From: Pseudozobellia thermophila
GTDB lineage: Bacteria; Bacteroidota; Bacteroidia; Flavobacteriales; Flavobacteriaceae
Reading direction: 5' to 3'
Assembly (NCBI RefSeq): GCF_900141855.1
Contig: NZ_FQYU01000005.1
Location: 193,790 to 257,789, forward strand
DNA length: 64,000 nucleotides
A program made the position numbers and the translations under genes. The notes beneath the pieces were generated by a model that was not told where the DNA came from, did not search any database, and saw only the letters and a program-made list of their open reading frames with translations. Positions 35,305 through 55,151 of this stretch are shown here, piece by piece. The stretch's first letter is position 1, and the number at the start of each line of letters is the position of its first letter.

Positions 35305-36069
35305 TTATCGTATGGTCTTGATAAAGGTCGATATTCCCTCCACGCCGTGACCGTTTAAATGTTTGATAAAGGCCGAACCGATAATGGCCCCTTTGGCCGA
35401 TTTTGTGGCCTGCTCGAAAGTTTCGGAATTACTGATGCCGAAACCTACGATTTGGGGATTGTTCAGCTTCATGTCGGCAATACGCTGAAAATAGGCTTGC
35501 TGCCCATCACCGAAACCCGATTGTGCCCCGGTGACGCTGGCCGAGCTTACCATGTAAATGAATCCGTTGGAAACCGAATCTATAAATCGGATGCGTTTCT
35601 CGGAAGTCTGTGGGGTAATCAAGAATACATTGATCAGGCCGTATTTCTCAAAGGTCTCTTGGTATTCCTCGTGATAGACATCTACCGGAAGATCGGGAAT
35701 GATGAGTCCGTCTATGCCAATTTCCTGGCATTTTTTACAGAAGGCCTCCACGCCATATTGAAGCATGGGGTTAAAGTAGCCCATGATAATAAGCGGAATG
35801 GAAACCGATTGGCGGATATCTTTTAGCTGGTCGAAAAGAATTTCGGTCGTCATGCCGTTTTTAAGGGCCGCTGTGGAACTTTGTTGAATGGTGGGGCCGT
35901 CTGCCAGGGGGTCACTGAACGGAAGCCCTATCTCGATCATATCGACGCCGTTTTTCTCCAATTGCTGTATGATTTCTACGGTGTCGCCCAGTTTGGGATA
36001 GCCGGCCGTAAAATAGATGGAAAGCAATTTGCCTTCTTCCTTCAGTTTTTTGTTGATTCTATTTCCCAT
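35305..36069 (-). CDS. trpA: Tryptophan synthase alpha subunit
   Basis: 254 residues from the ATG at 36069 (MGNRINKKLKEEGKLL). Cleaves indole-3-glycerol phosphate to indole and glyceraldehyde 3-phosphate. Catalytic Glu and Asp are in MIEIGLPFSDPLADGP, with the loop VSSASVTGAQSGF binding substrate phosphate. Works as an alpha2-beta2 complex with TrpB, encoded 90 nt upstream. Last biosynthetic gene of the trp operon. Confidence 0.98.
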   Translation of the reverse strand: MGNRINKKLKEEGKLLSIYFTAGYPKLGDTVEIIQQLEKNGVDMIEIGLPFSDPLADGPTIQQSSTAALKNGMTTEILFDQLKDIRQSVSIPLIIMGYFNPMLQYGVEAFCKKCQEIGIDGLIIPDLPVDVYHEEYQETFEKYGLINVFLITPQTSEKRIRFIDSVSNGFIYMVSSASVTGAQSGFGDGQQAYFQRIADMKLNNPQIVGFGISNSETFEQATKSAKGAIIGSAFIKHLNGHGVEGISTFIKTIR

Positions 36070-36159: not shown

Positions 36160-37344
36160 TTATAGGTTAAAATATTCGATATAGTTGTTGAGGTCCTTGT
36201 CTCCACGCCCCGATAGGTTGATGACTACCACATCTTCGGGTTTGAATTTTCGGTGTTCCAAGATCGCTAGTGCGTGCGAAGATTCAATAGCCGGGATAAT
36301 ACCTTCCATTTTAGACAATAGCAAGCCGGCGTTCATGGCATCGTCATCGGTAATGGAGATAAATTCCCCGCGGCCCGATGCATACAGATTGGCATGCATG
36401 GGTCCGACCCCGGGATAATCCAATCCTGCGGAAATGGAGTAGGGCTCGGTGATTTGTCCGTCATGGGTCTGCATTAACAAGGTTTTGCTGCCGTGAATGA
36501 TTCCTACCTTGCCCAAGGCCGAGGTAGCGGCACTTTCGCCACTGTCAATTCCTTTTCCGGCCGCTTCAACGGCTATGATGCCTACTTCCGGAATATCCAG
36601 GTAATGGTAGAAAGCTCCCGCGGCGTTACTTCCCCCGCCCACACAGGCCACTACGTAATCGGGATTCTCCCGTCCTTCCTTTTCTTTCAGCTGCCATTTG
36701 ATCTCTTCCGAAATTACCGACTGAAAGCGCGCTACCATATCGGGGTAGGGATGTGGTCCGACCACACTACCGATAATGTAATGGGTGTCTACAGGGTTAT
36801 TGATCCAGTCGCGAATGGCCTCGTTGGTGGCGTCTTTTAAGGTTCTACTGCCCGAAAGCGCAGGTCTGACCTCGGCGCCCAACATCTTCATACGGGCCAC
36901 GTTTGGGGCTTGCCGGGCGATATCGATCTCGCCCATGTAAACGACACATTCGATGCCCATAAGGGCACAGACCGTTGCAGTGGCCACCCCGTGCTGGCCG
37001 GCACCCGTTTCGGCAATGATCCTGTTTTTGCCCAACTTTTTGGCCATTAGGATCTGCCCAATGGTATTGTTGACCTTGTGCGCACCGGTATGGCAAAGGT
37101 CTTCGCGCTTCAGGTATATTTTAGTATTGTATTTTCTTGAAAGCCGATCGGCAAAATAGAGCGGGGTAGGGCGTCCTACATAATCTTTGAGCAATTGGTC
37201 AAATTCCTTTTTAAAGGAAGGTTCTTGCATGATGCGGATGTAGTTCTGCCGAAGTTCCTCGGTATTGGGGTACAACATTTCAGGAATATAGGCGCCGCCA
37301 AACTCCCCGTAATATCCTTTTTCGTCCGCTTGATAGGTTTTCAT
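36160..37344 (-). CDS. trpB: Tryptophan synthase beta subunit
   Basis: 394 residues. Condenses indole with L-serine to L-tryptophan. The PLP lysine is in [18 protein letters not shown], and the phosphate-binding loop is [10 protein letters not shown]. The canonical TrpB1 length and the neighbouring trpA show the biosynthetic form rather than the stand-alone TrpB2. It lies between trpF and trpA; about 59 nt separate it from trpF. Confidence 0.98.
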
Positions 37345-37403: not shown

Positions 37404-38093
37404 TTACTCGATACTAAGTACTCTTTTAAATTCCTTTACTTTTTCAACATCCTTTAAACCCGGTTCTATCTCAAACTTACTGTTCACGTCTATGGCGTGG
37501 CAGTATTTGGCTTCCGGCCGGGTCATGAATTCCTTTAGGGAATCCACTTCGTTCAATCCGATACCGCCGCTCAAAAAATAAGGTTTGGTAGAGGGGTAGT
37601 CTTTTAAAACTTCCCAATCAAAGGCATAGCCATTTCCCCCGGGCAATTTCCCCTTGGTATCGAAAAGAAAGAAATCGCATACGGTTTCATATGGCTTTAC
37701 TATTCCAAAATCAAAATCGTCTTTAATCGAAAATACTTTGATGATGGCAATGTGTTTTACGTTCTGCTTGAGCTCGGCGCAGTATTCGGGCGTTTCCGAA
37801 CCGTGCAGTTGCACCAACAAAAGGTCGTGGTCTTGTATGCGTTCGACAACGGTTTGAATGCTGGCATCGACAAATACGCCAACTTTCTTTACCGTATGGG
37901 GTACGGGTGGCATTGGGCCCGTAAAATGTCGTTTGGATTTTTCCCAAAAAATAAAGCCGAGATAATCGGGTCTTAGTCCGGCAATTTCGGTCGTGTTTTT
38001 GTTCATACCACACACCTTCAGCTTGATTGGGGCATTTTCTATGGTAGAAGGCCCTGATTTTTTGGTCGTGTAATGATAGTCCATTTGAGTCAT
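37404..38093 (-). CDS. trpF: Phosphoribosylanthranilate isomerase
   Basis: About 229 residues from the ATG at 38093 (MTQMDYHY); the catalytic barrel starts at KLKVCGMNKNT with the catalytic Cys, and an Asp is at the C-side (HAIDVNSKFE). The first 25 or so residues before KLKVCGM are longer than in most TrpF proteins, so the ATG at 38084 is also possible. Converts PRA to CdRP. It begins 15 nt after trpC and is a separate protein, not fused to TrpC as in E. coli. Confidence 0.95.
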   Translation of the reverse strand: MTQMDYHYTTKKSGPSTIENAPIKLKVCGMNKNTTEIAGLRPDYLGFIFWEKSKRHFTGPMPPVPHTVKKVGVFVDASIQTVVERIQDHDLLLVQLHGSETPEYCAELKQNVKHIAIIKVFSIKDDFDFGIVKPYETVCDFFLFDTKGKLPGGNGYAFDWEVLKDYPSTKPYFLSGGIGLNEVDSLKEFMTRPEAKYCHAIDVNSKFEIEPGLKDVEKVKEFKRVLSIE

Positions 38094-38108: not shown

Positions 38109-38891
38109 TTACGACAATTGTTTAATGAATTCCTTGGCGTTTTCACCGGGATTGTCCGTTTTCATAAAATTTTCCCCGATCAAAAACCCTTGATATCCGT
38201 AAGGTTTTAAATTTTTAATGGCCTCTATCGAGCTGATTCCGCTTTCCGATACTTTAACGAACTCGTCCGGAATGAGTTTTGATAGCGATTTGCTGGTCTC
38301 CAAACTCACCTCAAAAGTCTTGAGGTTTCGATTGTTTACGCCCAACATGTCGAGGCTGGGCATTATGCTTTTCTGTAGTTCGGCTTCGTTGTGCACCTCT
38401 AACAACACATCTAGGTCTAGGCTTTTGGCCAACTCCGAAAAGGTTTTTATTTCCTCCTTCGATAAAATAGCGGCTATCAAAAGAATCACATCGGCACCAT
38501 GGGCCCTGGCTTCCAAAATTTGATATTCGTCTATAATAAATTCTTTTCTCAATAAGGGCAGGCGTACGGAAGCACGGGCCAATAACAGATCGTCCAACGA
38601 ACCGCCAAAGTATTTCCCGTCGGTTAAAACGGACATGCCACAGACGCCTGCATTTTCGTATCCGCGGGCTACGTCTTGAACGTTCAGGCCTTGGTTGATT
38701 TCCGATTTGGAGGGCGAGCGTCGCTTGTGCTCGGCAATGATGCCGGTTGAACTGTTTCGCAGGGCCTTGCCCAAAGAAACCGTCTCACGTGCGAACAAGA
38801 CCGAATTTTCCAATTGGGAAACGGGGATAAGCGACTTTCTTAAGTCTGTTTCCTTGCGTTTGTCGGCTACTATTTTGTCTAGAATGTTCAT
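38109..38891 (-). CDS. trpC: Indole-3-glycerol phosphate synthase
   Basis: 260-residue TIM barrel. Catalytic residues are visible in IIAEHKRRSPSKSEI (Glu, Lys), LLRKEFIIDEYQI (Lys) and the product-binding LGVNNRNLKTFEVS and VSESGISS. Decarboxylates and cyclises CdRP to indole-3-glycerol phosphate, the substrate of TrpA. Gap of 27 nt from trpD. Confidence 0.98.
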   Translation of the reverse strand: MNILDKIVADKRKETDLRKSLIPVSQLENSVLFARETVSLGKALRNSSTGIIAEHKRRSPSKSEINQGLNVQDVARGYENAGVCGMSVLTDGKYFGGSLDDLLLARASVRLPLLRKEFIIDEYQILEARAHGADVILLIAAILSKEEIKTFSELAKSLDLDVLLEVHNEAELQKSIMPSLDMLGVNNRNLKTFEVSLETSKSLSKLIPDEFVKVSESGISSIEAIKNLKPYGYQGFLIGENFMKTDNPGENAKEFIKQLS

Positions 38892-38918: not shown

Positions 38919-39914
38919 TTAGTTTTTACTCAATTCTTGCAGTTTTTTCAAGGCCTTTAGTCCTTTTCCGGTCAATAGCGATTCCTTGGCTTGTTCAAAA
39001 CCTTCTTTCGGACTCAGGTTCTTTACCGTGGCAATGGCGATTCCCGCATTGGCACAGACTACATTGTTCTGGGCTTCCGTACCTCGGCCTTGCAGTACAT
39101 TTAAGAATATCTGGGCCGAATCTTCAATGGAGTCGCCCCCGACAATTTGTGACTGTTCTATTTTTTCTACACCAAAATCCTCGGGTTTCAACATGCTCTC
39201 CGAATTATTGGAAATGGTTTTGGTATTGCCGGTCAACGAAATCTCGTCATAGCCGTCCAAGGCGTGGAGTACGGTAAATTTTTTATCGGTGTTCTGATAG
39301 AGGTAGCCGTACATTCGGGCCAGTTCGAGGTTGAAGACACCGACCATTTGATTCTTTGGAAAGGCCGGGTTGACCATGGGCCCCAACATATTGAAAAAGG
39401 TCTTTACGGCCAATTCTTTTCTGATCGGACCTACGTTTTTCATGGCAGGGTGAAATAAGGGGGCATGAAGGACACAGATACCCGCTTGGTCAATCGATTT
39501 TTTTAGGAAGTCGGCTTCGTTACTGAATTTGATCCCTAAGAATTCCATGACGTTGCTGCTCCCGCATTTGGAAGAAACCCCGTAGTTGCCGTGCTTGGTT
39601 ACGTTTACCCCTGCACCCGCCGTTACGAACGACGCCAAGGTAGAAATGTTGAAGGTGTCCTTACCGTCGCCGCCCGTTCCGCAAAGGTCGATTGGGTCGT
39701 ATTCCGAAAGGTCTACCGCCAAGCACAGTTCCAAGAGGGCGTCGCGAAAACCTTCGAGCTCCTCTATGGCAATGCTGCGCATCATATAGACCGTTAAAAA
39801 GGCAGCGATCTGGCTTGTATTGTACTCTCCTTTGGCAATGTTCACCAACACTTTCTTGGCTTCCTCTTTTTCGAGGATATCGTGGTTGATGAGTCTGTTC
39901 AATGTTTCTTTCAT
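38919..39914 (-). CDS. trpD: Anthranilate phosphoribosyltransferase
   Basis: 331 residues. Transfers phosphoribose from PRPP to anthranilate. It shows the glycine-rich PRPP loop CGTGGDGKDTFNIST and KHGNYGVSSKCGSSNVMEFLG. Starts 36 nt after trpG. TrpG and TrpD are separate polypeptides here. Confidence 0.98.
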   Translation of the reverse strand: MKETLNRLINHDILEKEEAKKVLVNIAKGEYNTSQIAAFLTVYMMRSIAIEELEGFRDALLELCLAVDLSEYDPIDLCGTGGDGKDTFNISTLASFVTAGAGVNVTKHGNYGVSSKCGSSNVMEFLGIKFSNEADFLKKSIDQAGICVLHAPLFHPAMKNVGPIRKELAVKTFFNMLGPMVNPAFPKNQMVGVFNLELARMYGYLYQNTDKKFTVLHALDGYDEISLTGNTKTISNNSESMLKPEDFGVEKIEQSQIVGGDSIEDSAQIFLNVLQGRGTEAQNNVVCANAGIAIATVKNLSPKEGFEQAKESLLTGKGLKALKKLQELSKN

Positions 39915-39950: not shown

Positions 39951-40514
39951 TTAGTTGTTCAACCAGTTGGCAAGGATTTTTTTGCCTTCGGGCGTCAAGA
40001 CCGATTCGGGATGGAACTGAACGGCAGAAACATCGTAAACCTTATGGCGAAGCGACATGACCTGGCCGTTTTCATCGACCGAGGTGGCCTCCAGGCTTTC
40101 GGGAAGGTCGGGACTTACCACCCATGAATGGTAGCGGCCCACCTTTATCTTTTTGGGCAGGCCCTCAAAATTGGGGTCGTCTTTGGTAATGCTGATCTCG
40201 GTGGCGATCCCGTGGTACACCTCGTCCAGGTTGATCAATGAACCTCCGAACACCTCGCCTATGGCCTGCTGGCCCAAGCAGACCCCGAAAATACTTTTGG
40301 TAGGGGCGTATTTGGTAATAATTTCCTTTAGGAGGCCGGCTTCATCGGGTATTCCCGGGCCCGGGGAAAGCACGATCTTGTCAAAGGCCTCGACTTCGTC
40401 CAAGGTCAATTGGTCGTTGCGTTTTACGATTACCTCACAATCCAGGTCTTCTAAATAATGGACTAAGTTATAGGTAAAACTATCGTAGTTGTCTATTACT
40501 AAAATTTTCTTCAT
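39951..40514 (-). CDS. trpG: Anthranilate/aminodeoxychorismate synthase glutaminase subunit
   Basis: 187-residue class I glutamine amidotransferase. The nucleophile Cys is in FGVCLGQQAIGE, and His/Glu of the triad are in VQFHPESVLT. Supplies ammonia to TrpE; such subunits may also serve PabB. Its ATG lies 2 nt after the trpE stop, implying coupled translation and equimolar synthesis. Confidence 0.97.
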   Translation of the reverse strand: MKKILVIDNYDSFTYNLVHYLEDLDCEVIVKRNDQLTLDEVEAFDKIVLSPGPGIPDEAGLLKEIITKYAPTKSIFGVCLGQQAIGEVFGGSLINLDEVYHGIATEISITKDDPNFEGLPKKIKVGRYHSWVVSPDLPESLEATSVDENGQVMSLRHKVYDVSAVQFHPESVLTPEGKKILANWLNN

Positions 40515-40516
40515 CT

Positions 40517-41914
40517 CTATATCGTTTCGGCAATTTTCAAGGCCTTGGTCAATGCGCCCAATTTGTTGTAGGTTTCTTGCAGTTCGTCTTCGGGATCTGA
40601 TGCGGCCACAAGGCCTGCACCGGCCTGATAGTGCAATTGATGGTTTTTGCTTAAAAATGTACGGATCATTATGGCGTGGTTAAAGTTGCCGTCAAAGTCC
40701 ATAAACCCAATGGCCCCACCGTAGTAGCCGCGACTGGTCTTTTCGTATTTTTCGATAAGCTGCATGGCCATGTGCTTGGGGGCGCCGCTCAAGGTGCCTG
40801 CGGGAAAGGTATCGGCCACCACTTTCATGGTAGGGATATCTTTCTTTTTCTTGCCCACGACCTTCGATACCAAATGGATGACGTGGGAGAAGAACTGTAC
40901 CTCCCTGTAGTTGGTCACCTCTACCATACTGCCGTTCCGGCTCAGGTCGTTCCGGGCCAGGTCGACCAACATGACGTGTTCGCTGTTTTCCTTGTCGTCT
41001 TCGGTAAGCTGCTTGGCCAAAAGGGCGTCTTGTTCGTCGTTACCGGTGCGTTTAAAGGTCCCGGCAATCGGGTGGATTTCGGCCTTGCCGTTTTTTACGA
41101 TAAGCTGTGCTTCCGGTGAGCTTCCAAAGATCTTGAAATCGCCATAATCAAAGTAAAATAGGTAAGGTGATGGGTTGACCGAACGGAGGGCCCTGTACAC
41201 GTTGAACTCATCTCCCTTAAACCCTTGGGAAAACCTACGGGAAAGTACCAGTTGAAAAACATCGCCACGTTGACAGTGTTTTTTCGCCAATCGCACGTGC
41301 TCTTTGTATTCTTCGTCCTCTAGATTGGAGGTGGCTTCGCCGTCGAGGGAGAAATTGTACGAAGCAAAGGTACGTACGTTCAAAATATGGGCTATTTCGG
41401 CCGTGTTTTCGTCGGTGTTAAAACAGTGGGCAAAAATATAGGCCTCGTTCTTATGGTGGTCTATGGCAATGATATTCTGGTACACCGCATAATAGATGTC
41501 GGGTATGGCCACCGAATCCTCTTTTTTATTGATTTTAATGTCTTCGTAGTAGCGTACCGCGTCATAGGCCATATAGCCGAAGATACCGTTGTTGATAAAC
41601 TTGAAATCGCTCTCATCGGCCTCGAACTTTTTGCTAAAGTCGTGAATGACCTTTACCACATCGGTAGCCGCATTGATTTCCGTTTCACGCGACGTTTGGT
41701 CGGGAAACCGTTCGATAATGGTTTCGTTCTCGATCCTTATCGAGGCGATCGGGTTGCAGCAGATGTAAGAGAAGCTGTTGTCGTTGGCGTGGTAGTCGCT
41801 ACTTTCGAGCAAGATACTGTTGGGAAAGCGGTCCCTGATCTTTAGATAGACGCTGACCGGGGTAATGGTATCGGCGAGAATTTTTTTGTGATAGGATTTT
41901 AACTTGTACTTCAT
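40517..41914 (-). CDS. trpE: Anthranilate synthase component I
   Basis: 465 residues from the ATG at 41914 (MKYKLKSYHKKILAD); an in-frame start at 41956 would lie inside the attenuator hairpin and is rejected. Makes anthranilate from chorismate and ammonia. The N-terminal feedback motif LLESS (SILLESSDY) is the known Trp-binding segment, and the C-terminal chorismate-binding domain has AGTFKRTGNDEQDALLAKQL and DLARNDLSRN. First structural gene of the trp operon, 19 nt downstream of the attenuator stem. Confidence 0.98.
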   Translation of the reverse strand: MKYKLKSYHKKILADTITPVSVYLKIRDRFPNSILLESSDYHANDNSFSYICCNPIASIRIENETIIERFPDQTSRETEINAATDVVKVIHDFSKKFEADESDFKFINNGIFGYMAYDAVRYYEDIKINKKEDSVAIPDIYYAVYQNIIAIDHHKNEAYIFAHCFNTDENTAEIAHILNVRTFASYNFSLDGEATSNLEDEEYKEHVRLAKKHCQRGDVFQLVLSRRFSQGFKGDEFNVYRALRSVNPSPYLFYFDYGDFKIFGSSPEAQLIVKNGKAEIHPIAGTFKRTGNDEQDALLAKQLTEDDKENSEHVMLVDLARNDLSRNGSMVEVTNYREVQFFSHVIHLVSKVVGKKKKDIPTMKVVADTFPAGTLSGAPKHMAMQLIEKYEKTSRGYYGGAIGFMDFDGNFNHAIMIRTFLSKNHQLHYQAGAGLVAASDPEDELQETYNKLGALTKALKIAETI

Positions 41915-41933
41915 AGTGATCGTATTCAAAAGG

Positions 41934-41963
41934 AAAAGGCTTGTCGTGATTGACAAGCCTTTT
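41934..41963 (-). terminator. trp operon attenuator (intrinsic terminator)
   Basis: Perfect 12-bp stem, minus strand 5' arm AAAAGGCTTGTC (41963-41952) and 3' arm GACAAGCCTTTT (41945-41934), six-base loop AATCAC, followed by CCTTTT. It lies between the Trp-rich leader peptide and trpE. The sequence TCGTGA over the leader peptide stop (41991-41996) is exactly complementary to TCACGA in the loop and 3' arm (41944-41949), giving a possible antiterminator pairing. Confidence 0.85.
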
Positions 41964-41990
41964 TATAGTTTTACTACAATGATGCTCAGC

Positions 41991-42047
41991 TCACGATATC
42001 TGTCGAGAGTTGTTCCACCACCAAGTATTTGTATTAATTCCGTTCAT
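41991..42047 (-). CDS. trpL: trp operon leader peptide with three consecutive Trp
   Basis: An 18-codon frame reading MNGINTNTWWWNNSRQIS, ATG at 42047 and TGA at 41993-41991. Three adjacent Trp codons are very unlikely by chance directly upstream of trpE and between a promoter and a terminator hairpin. By analogy with enterobacterial TrpL, a ribosome stalled on the Trp codons would leave the TCGTGA at the stop codon free, while a ribosome reaching the stop would cover it and let the terminator form. The ATG is only 5 nt after the -7 element, so the message may be leaderless. Confidence 0.87.
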   Translation of the reverse strand: MNGINTNTWWWNNSRQIS

Positions 42048-42052
42048 TGGAC

Positions 42053-42082
42053 CAAATATAGAAATCATTTTTAAAACCACAA
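42053..42082 (-). promoter_or_regulatory. Predicted trp operon promoter
   Basis: On the minus strand, TTG (42082-42080), 19 nt spacer, TATATTTG (42060-42053). Close match to the Bacteroidetes consensus; the predicted start is near 42050-42046, at the leader peptide ATG. Confidence 0.8.
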
Positions 42083-42104
42083 ACCGATTTGTTCGAAAAA
42101 AATA

Positions 42105-53187: not shown

Positions 53188-53261
53188 GCCGATGTAGCTC
53201 AGCTGGCTAGAGCAGCTGATTTGTAATCAGCAGGTCGTGGGTTCGAGTCCCTCCATCGGCT
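53188..53261 (+). tRNA. tRNA-Thr (TGT)
   Basis: 74 nt cloverleaf. Acceptor GCCGATG pairs with CATCGGC, anticodon loop TTTGTAA with anticodon TGT, T arm GTTCGAG. CCA not encoded. First of four tRNAs before tuf. Confidence 0.96.
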
Positions 53262-53348
53262 CAAAACATCAGGAATTACGCAGTTTTTCCGATGGGTGTC
53301 CGGCAAGGTTCGATCGGGCGGTAAGAAGGAAATATTGAAATAAGGCTA

Positions 53349-53430
<82 letters not shown>

Positions 53431-53526
53431 CTGATTTGAGATCGGTTCTCAAATTTGTGTCGGTGTTCCGGAACAGGACGATTTTTTTTTGGAATGTCGA
53501 TTTGAAATGTTGAAATGTTTAAAAAT

Positions 53527-53599
53527 GCGGGAGTAGCTCAGTTGGTAGAGCGTCAGCCTTCCAAGCTGAATGTCGCCGGTTCGAACCCGGTCTCCCGCT
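53527..53599 (+). tRNA. tRNA-Gly (TCC)
   Basis: 73 nt. Acceptor GCGGGAG pairs with CTCCCGC, anticodon loop CTTCCAA with anticodon TCC, T loop TTCGAAC. No encoded CCA. Confidence 0.96.
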
Positions 53600-53606
53600 C
53601 AAAATA

Positions 53607-53640
53607 AAATGGCGGTCGCGCCATTTCCTGCGAAGGCAGG
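53607..53640 (+). repeat. Tandem hairpins between tRNA-Gly and tRNA-Thr
   Basis: Two adjacent stem-loops: AAATGGCG with CGCCATTT (53607-53626), and CCTGC-GAAG-GCAGG (53627-53640), followed by a T-run. Could be an RNase processing site, a partial terminator, or a REP-like intergenic element. Confidence 0.5.
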
Positions 53641-53689
53641 CATCTCTTCCTTTTTTAGTTGTGGGGGATGAAGATATTAAACACTTTAC

Positions 53690-53761
53690 GCCGACGTAGC
53701 TCAGGGGTAGAGCGTTTCCTTGGTAAGGAAGAGGTCACGGGTTCAATTCCCGTCGTTGGCT
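53690..53761 (+). tRNA. tRNA-Thr (GGT)
   Basis: 72 nt. Acceptor GCCGACG pairs with CGTTGGC (one G-T pair), anticodon loop TTGGTAA with anticodon GGT. No encoded CCA. Last tRNA before tuf. Confidence 0.96.
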
Positions 53762-53816
53762 CAACGAAGGCATTATTTGTACACTAATATATAACTAAGA
53801 TTAAAATTCATTAAAA

Positions 53817-55004
53817 ATGGCAAAGGAAACTTTTGATCGTTCCAAACCGCACTTGAATATAGGTACTATTGGACACGTGGATCACGGTAAAACAACATTG
53901 ACAGCGGCAATTACTACGGTATTGGCCAATGCTGGTCTTTCTGAACTTAGAAGTTTTGATTCTATCGATAATGCTCCTGAAGAGAAAGAAAGGGGTATTA
54001 CCATCAATACGTCCCACGTAGAGTATCAAACGGCCAACCGTCACTACGCACACGTTGACTGTCCTGGTCACGCGGATTACGTAAAGAACATGGTTACCGG
54101 TGCGGCCCAGATGGACGGTGCTATCTTGGTTGTTGCTGCAACCGATGGTCCAATGCCACAAACCCGTGAGCACATCCTATTAGGTCGTCAGGTTGGTATT
54201 CCAAGAATCGTTGTGTTCTTGAACAAAGTTGACATGGTCGACGATGAGGAGTTGTTGGAGCTTGTTGAGATGGAAGTAAGGGAATTGCTTTCTTTCTACG
54301 AGTACGACGGTGATAACGGTCCTGTAATTGCCGGTTCTGCCCTAGGTGCACTTAACGGTGAGCAAAAGTGGGTCGATACCGTAATGGAGTTGATGGATGC
54401 CGTTGATAACTGGATCGAATTGCCTCAAAGGGACGTTGATAAGGATTTCTTGATGCCTGTTGAGGACGTGTTCACTATCACAGGTCGTGGTACCGTTGCT
54501 ACAGGTCGTATCGAAACAGGTGTTGCCAATACTGGTGACGCGGTTGATATCATCGGTATGGGTGCCGAGAAGTTGACTTCCACTATTACGGGTGTTGAAA
54601 TGTTCCGTAAGATCTTGGACAGGGGTGAGGCCGGTGATAACGTAGGTATCCTTTTGAGGGGTATTGAAAAATCGGACATCAAAAGGGGTATGGTAATCTG
54701 TAAGCCAGGTTCCGTTACACCACACGCCAAATTCGAGGCTGAGGTTTATATCCTTAAGAAAGAAGAAGGTGGTCGTCACACACCATTCCATAACAACTAC
54801 CGTCCACAGTTCTACGTAAGGACAACGGATGTAACTGGTAACATCAGCCTTCCTAGCGGGGTTGAGATGGTTATGCCAGGTGATAACTTGACAATTACCG
54901 TTGATTTGATTCAGCCAATCGCATTGAGTGTGGGTCTTCGTTTCGCCATCCGTGAAGGTGGTAGAACCGTTGGTGCTGGTCAGGTTACCAAGATTCTAGA
55001 TTAA
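53817..55004 (+). CDS. tuf: Elongation factor Tu
   Basis: 395-residue translation GTPase delivering aminoacyl-tRNA to the ribosome. G1 [10 protein letters not shown]2/switch [16 protein letters not shown]3 DCPGHADY, G4 NKVD, G5 GSALGAL. Domains 2 and 3 follow. The codon choice is visibly biased (highly expressed gene), and the GC content seems lower than in flanking genes. Placed after four tRNAs and before tRNA-Trp, as in most bacteria. Confidence 0.99.
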
Positions 55005-55028
55005 TTTTTATAAGATAGTATAAATTGC

Positions 55029-55064
55029 TTTAAGGGTGTCCTTCATATGTTGGACACCTTTAAA
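55029..55064 (+). terminator. Hairpin between tuf and tRNA-Trp
   Basis: Arms TTTAAGGGTGTCC (55029-55041) and GGACACCTTTAAA (55052-55064), 13 bp with one G-U wobble, loop TTCATATGTT. No clear U-tract follows, so it may be a 3'-stabilising or processing hairpin separating tuf from the tRNA-secE transcript. Confidence 0.6.
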
Positions 55065-55075
55065 TGCAATTATAA

Positions 55076-55151
55076 ACGGGTGTAGCTCAGTTGGTAGAGC
55101 ACTGGTCTCCAAAACCAGGTGTCGGGAGTTCGAGTCTCTCCTCCCGTGCCA
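55076..55151 (+). tRNA. tRNA-Trp (CCA)
   Basis: Cloverleaf with anticodon loop CTCCAAA, anticodon CCA; D arm GCTCAG...GAGC; T loop TTCGAGT. The 3' CCA is encoded (55149-55151), unlike the other tRNAs here. The acceptor ACGGGTG against CTCCCGT leaves a T-T mismatch at position 6-67. Confidence 0.94.

Follow-up and report, generated by a model that had tools for sequence, protein, structure and literature searches.

A probable ribosome-mediated attenuator and its candidate antiterminator pairing upstream of the trp operon in Pseudozobellia thermophila

The trp operon and its leader

We analysed a window of 64,000 nucleotides from the genome of Pseudozobellia thermophila, in which seven genes on the minus strand lie 3' of a short leader in the order trpE-G-D-C-F-B-A. 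The first, trpE (40517..41914), encodes anthranilate synthase component I (TIGR00564, 6.8e-133, a match under the model's cut-off), and its nearest relatives are the TrpE proteins of Zobellia, at 94% identity. It is followed by trpG (39951..40514), trpD (38919..39914), trpC (38109..38891), trpF (37404..38090), trpB (36160..37344), and trpA (35305..36066). A group of tRNA genes for Thr, Tyr, Gly, and Thr, with a tRNA-Trp (CCA) gene 1.3 kb further on, occupies window positions 53188-55151, about 13 kb from the trp operon.

The leader is read from the same strand and starts with a sigma-A promoter of the Bacteroidota type, composed of a -33 element, TTTG (42080..42083), and, after a spacing of N19, a -7 element, TATATTTG (42053..42060; consensus TAnnTTTG). 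The TAnnTTTG motif is present upstream in 145 of 159 leaders, as compared to a rate of 4% in shuffles. Five nucleotides separate the end of the -7 box from the leader ATG in the window; among relatives, this spacing is bimodal (4-5 nt in 28/145 and 16-20 nt in 62/145). According to PMC9723704, the -7 element is located at -12 to -5. Because this placement, applied to the window, puts the transcript start at about 42048, the leader peptide would be nearly leaderless.

The leader ORF (41991..42047, minus strand; ATG at 42047, TGA at 41993-41991) encodes MNGINTNTWWWNNSRQIS in 18 codons followed by the stop codon, and includes three adjacent Trp codons, TGGTGGTGG (42015..42023), which form the predicted sensing site. 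In the minimum free energy (MFE) fold, a stem is formed between segment 1, UACUUGGUGGUG (42016..42027), and CAUCAUUGUAGUA (41972..41984), the counterpart of the outer stem in the Rfam consensus; this sequestering stem includes the Trp codons themselves. The 5' strand of the antiterminator, TCGTGA (41991..41996), overlaps the leader stop codon. Further downstream is an intrinsic terminator with a perfect 12-bp hairpin, AAAAGGCTTGTC-AATCAC-GACAAGCCTTTT (41934..41963, loop 41951-41946), and the tail CCTTTT (41928..41933) on its 3' side. The 3' strand of the antiterminator, TCACGA (41944..41949), begins with four loop bases and extends two bases into the 3' arm. The trpE ATG (41914) is 19 nt past the terminator hairpin. 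The leader of the window folds with a z-score of -3.99, and none of 200 dinucleotide shuffles folded equally well. The promoter, the WWW leader, the 12-bp hairpin, and trpE 19 nt further on had all been described in an earlier note on this DNA, and direct reading of the minus strand confirmed every base-level detail.

Judging from the sequence, two parts expected of an attenuator are in place, namely a conserved WWW within an 18-codon ORF and, between this ORF and trpE, a predicted 12-bp hairpin with an interrupted T run. The T run of the window is broken after the hairpin (TTTTCCTTTT, 41928-41937) and is weaker than in most relatives. Zobellia relatives have TTTTGCATTT at this place, whereas in most other relatives the T run is longer and unbroken; terminators of this clade may be less efficient.

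Family membership and conservation in relatives

The leader is a member of the Rfam family RF01692 (Bacteroid-trp), based on a score over the gathering cutoff and its location upstream of trp genes. The match (42067-41952, minus strand) reaches 52.1 bits, the gathering score being 49 bits, covers model positions 1-131 (full length), and is the single copy in the whole genome. Other Rfam families gave no such match: the E. coli trpL family (RF00513) did not match the window leader, no T-box covariance-model match was found anywhere in the window, and no cis-regulatory family other than RF01692 matched at the locus.

Whether this architecture had been described in Flavobacteriaceae was a question that the earlier note left open. 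The element is known: Weinberg et al. 2010 (PMC2864571) catalogued it among the RNAs of Bacteroidetes as probably cis-regulatory, and the main text of PMC6414381 names it for Flavobacterium psychrophilum, where it precedes the trp operon. The main text of PMC9723704 gives strong indications that amino-acid operons of F. psychrophilum are under attenuation by leader peptides, encoded ahead of them, and in the main texts of both papers ribosome-mediated attenuation in flavobacteria is already suspected. The window shares with RF01692 its position upstream of Bacteroidota trp genes, the leader ORF region, and the sequestering stem. The antiterminator pairing is outside the Rfam model. Since the covariance model stops at position 131, within the 5' arm of the terminator, the TCGTGA:TCACGA pairing is absent from RF01692, as are the loop and the 3' arm. 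The attenuator system itself is not new; as judged from the main texts of open-licence papers, its antiterminator may have a target of a kind not yet described.

Of 200 genomes sampled from the same family, 173 had RF01692, with 124 scoring above the cutoff; of 295 genomes drawn from the class, 34 had it. Conservation was also evaluated independently of the model, using the 80 best TrpE relatives with loci picked by TrpE similarity only. The conservation of a Trp-rich short ORF and a hairpin, which the earlier note proposed as a check, holds throughout: all 80 loci have adjacent Trp codons upstream, and in all 80 these are followed by TCGTGA and, within the terminator, by TCACGA, each either exact or slightly altered. 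The leader lies near trpE in 74 loci and farther upstream, behind inserted sequence, in the other six.

For these six relatives (L199, L251, L261, L262, L265, and L271), loss of the leader was considered and ruled out, with additional sequence separating the attenuator terminator from trpE. The insert of L251 encodes a GIY-YIG nuclease-like gene (PF01541, 1.1e-16), and the inserts of the other five resemble it by eye.

Candidate pairing between the leader stop region and the terminator

Among relatives, the TCGTGA of the leader stop is near-invariant, as is the TCACGA that spans the terminator loop and the start of the 3' arm. Because near-invariance alone proves no pairing, we tested species-matched complementarity. 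The test was run on hairpin tops, since an initial duplex test on whole terminator arms had been diluted by their A/T-rich sequence. The leader region paired with the loop and the top of the 3' arm with a mean z-score of -3.67 against shuffles (n = 159 leaders; 85% at p ≤ 0.05). For 56 distinct hairpin tops, the duplex energy was -12.0 within a species and -9.9 ± 0.3 after swapping (0/5000 permutations), relatives being non-independent samples in this comparison. The 17 hairpin tops from outside Flavobacteriaceae gave -12.5 for own-species and -9.0 for swapped pairs.

Compensated variants were present in several leaders, such as TTGTCGCAA:TTGCGACAA in L103, AGTGA:TCACT in L089, CAGTGA:TCACTG in L158, and GTCGTGAG:CTTACGAC in L137, and in L132 and L140, where GTCGTAAG is matched by CTTGCGGC and CTTTACGGC, respectively. 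The antiterminator core of the window is only 6 bp. A second antiterminator arm seen in folds of the window, between TGAGC of the leader and GCTTG of the terminator 5' arm, was tried and rejected. Such additional pairing with the 5' arm, the position of the antiterminator in E. coli, was no better than in shuffles (mean z -0.17, 127 leaders).

Several other Bacteroidia families have a corresponding segment whose partner is the 5' arm and loop (for example, GAACAGC:GCTGTTC and GGCAACC:GGTTGCC), which is the classical arrangement. Since these related families, as well as the His leaders described below, use the 5' arm and loop, the target of the antiterminator appears to have shifted between lineages. 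We consider it more likely than not that the trp leaders of Flavobacteriaceae have an undescribed antiterminator geometry, in which the stop-codon segment captures the terminator loop and the loop-proximal part of the 3' arm, and not the 5' arm, thereby blocking nucleation of the hairpin.

Ribosome position and folding states

In most leaders, the antiterminator segment begins 16-19 nt past the last Trp codon, and the leader stop codon is found before, inside, or after the segment, with its frame and place varying. Assuming a ribosome footprint of the size known from E. coli, a ribosome with any Trp codon in the A site would leave the segment free in 99-100% of leaders, and a ribosome at the stop codon would cover it wholly in 94%. 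This geometry is the one that the mechanism requires, and it explains why the stop codon is able to shift, provided that the segment stays within the footprint.

State folding was performed for 154 leaders, with transcripts ended just past the terminator loop. The pairing probability of the antiterminator, averaged over these leaders, was 0.94 with a ribosome stalled at the second Trp codon and 0.17 with no ribosome; the value of zero in the stop-codon state is a consequence of the assumed footprint. Before synthesis of the terminator, the segment was sequestered by upstream sequence with a probability of 0.78, as compared to 0.61 in shuffled flanks. In the absence of a ribosome, the sequestering stem of the window was leaky in silico, with a pairing probability of 0.56, as compared to 0.00 in two relatives. 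In these models, antiterminator and terminator are predicted to be mutually exclusive, and the antiterminator segment would be exposed only by stalling.

Once complete, the terminator beats the antiterminator at equilibrium in all states in silico, so timing and kinetics must decide between them. This result is no specific evidence against attenuation because the E. coli trpL leader gives the same outcome in the same calculation.

Proposed mechanism and alternatives

We propose that the leader is, very probably, a ribosome-mediated transcription attenuator of the trpEGDCFBA operon and belongs to RF01692. When Trp-tRNA is ample, the ribosome would get to the stop codon and mask TCGTGA, upon which the terminator would form and transcription would stop ahead of trpE. 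When Trp-tRNA is scarce, the ribosome would stall at WWW, melt the sequestering stem UACUUGGUGGUG:CAUCAUUGUAGUA, and leave TCGTGA exposed to bind the emerging TCACGA at the loop and the top of the 3' arm. This would keep the base pairs that close the loop from forming, and the polymerase would continue into trpE. TCGTGA:TCACGA could prevail only as long as the terminator is incomplete. Conservation, species-matched complementarity with compensatory changes, and ribosome geometry support both the reading as Trp-leader attenuation and the pairing of TCGTGA with TCACGA, as put forward in the earlier note, with the addition that pairing must precede the complete terminator.

A different role for the pairing within a real attenuator, such as stabilising the hairpin through a kissing interaction or pseudoknot, or acting in some other way than preventing termination, seems improbable. 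Besides the loop, TCGTGA:TCACGA takes up no more than 2-3 bp of the terminator, so that the lower 9-10 bp could still form around it, and the full terminator is favoured at equilibrium. However, TCGTGA is exposed only when the ribosome is stalled, and a pro-termination role would therefore switch the operon off under Trp shortage; the 5' arm and loop pairing of other Bacteroidia families and of His leaders is, moreover, that of a classical antiterminator.

In Firmicutes, trp genes are controlled by a Trp-binding protein or by T-box-like systems, and such a protein or RNA could in principle govern the terminator here, the WWW peptide being incidental. We regard this as very unlikely, given that the locus has no T-box or other cis-regulatory Rfam match beyond RF01692, that the Trp codons are near-invariant among relatives, and that the position of the stop codon follows the pairing segment. 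Equally unlikely is a constitutive terminator, next to which the small ORF and the complementarity would be due to chance or to common descent without function: the motif indeed hardly varies among the Flavobacteriaceae sequences, which are related, but species-matched pairing with compensatory changes spans families, and a conserved loop sequence is not expected of an ordinary terminator.

The proposed attenuator resembles that of E. coli trpL in having a leader peptide with adjacent Trp codons, a stop codon near the switching segment, and mutually exclusive sequestering, antiterminator, and terminator structures, and the two behave similarly in silico. In E. coli trpL, the partner of segment 2 is segment 3, which forms the terminator 5' arm, and the calculation used for the window also shows this pairing. 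The antiterminator of E. coli is therefore on the 5' arm, whereas that of the window is on the loop and the top of the 3' arm. The proposal turns a catalogued RNA family with an open mechanism into a specific, testable switch, and indicates that the choice of antiterminator target is lineage-specific.

Related leaders for His and Phe in the same genome

Leaders of like design, which have no Rfam entry, are found at two further amino-acid loci of this genome. Upstream of hisG (L160, minus strand), a His leader peptide, MKNRNTHHHHFYTGSQAR, is followed by a terminator, and TCTCAAGCG, just ahead of the leader stop, complements CGTTTGAGA of the terminator, pairing with its 5' arm and loop. A similar His leader precedes hisG in 28 of 30 relatives, with the pairing in most of them. 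Upstream of pheA (L193, from position 1332 on), a Phe-rich candidate leader frame, MSNQYFFNGFYFYFFFKRGMGPL, with 7-8 Phe residues is followed by a GTCCCG...CGGGAC terminator, and GGGAC ahead of the leader stop complements its 5' arm. Rfam matched neither the hisG nor the pheA leader, and a leader-peptide search of the ilvD locus found none.

As in the present genome, leader-peptide attenuation has been proposed at amino-acid operons of F. psychrophilum, a member of the same family, in the main text of PMC9723704, including pheA and hisG, where conserved 5' elements without an Rfam match are reported. The window analysis differs from these reports in the antiterminator pairing and the comparative test, neither of which came up in a term search of the open-licence main texts of PMC6414381 and PMC9723704. 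The occurrence of Trp, His, and Phe leaders suggests that Flavobacteriaceae generally use leader-peptide attenuation in amino-acid control. To judge from the main text of PMC9723704, the hisG and pheA leaders found here are probably the same as its 5' elements.
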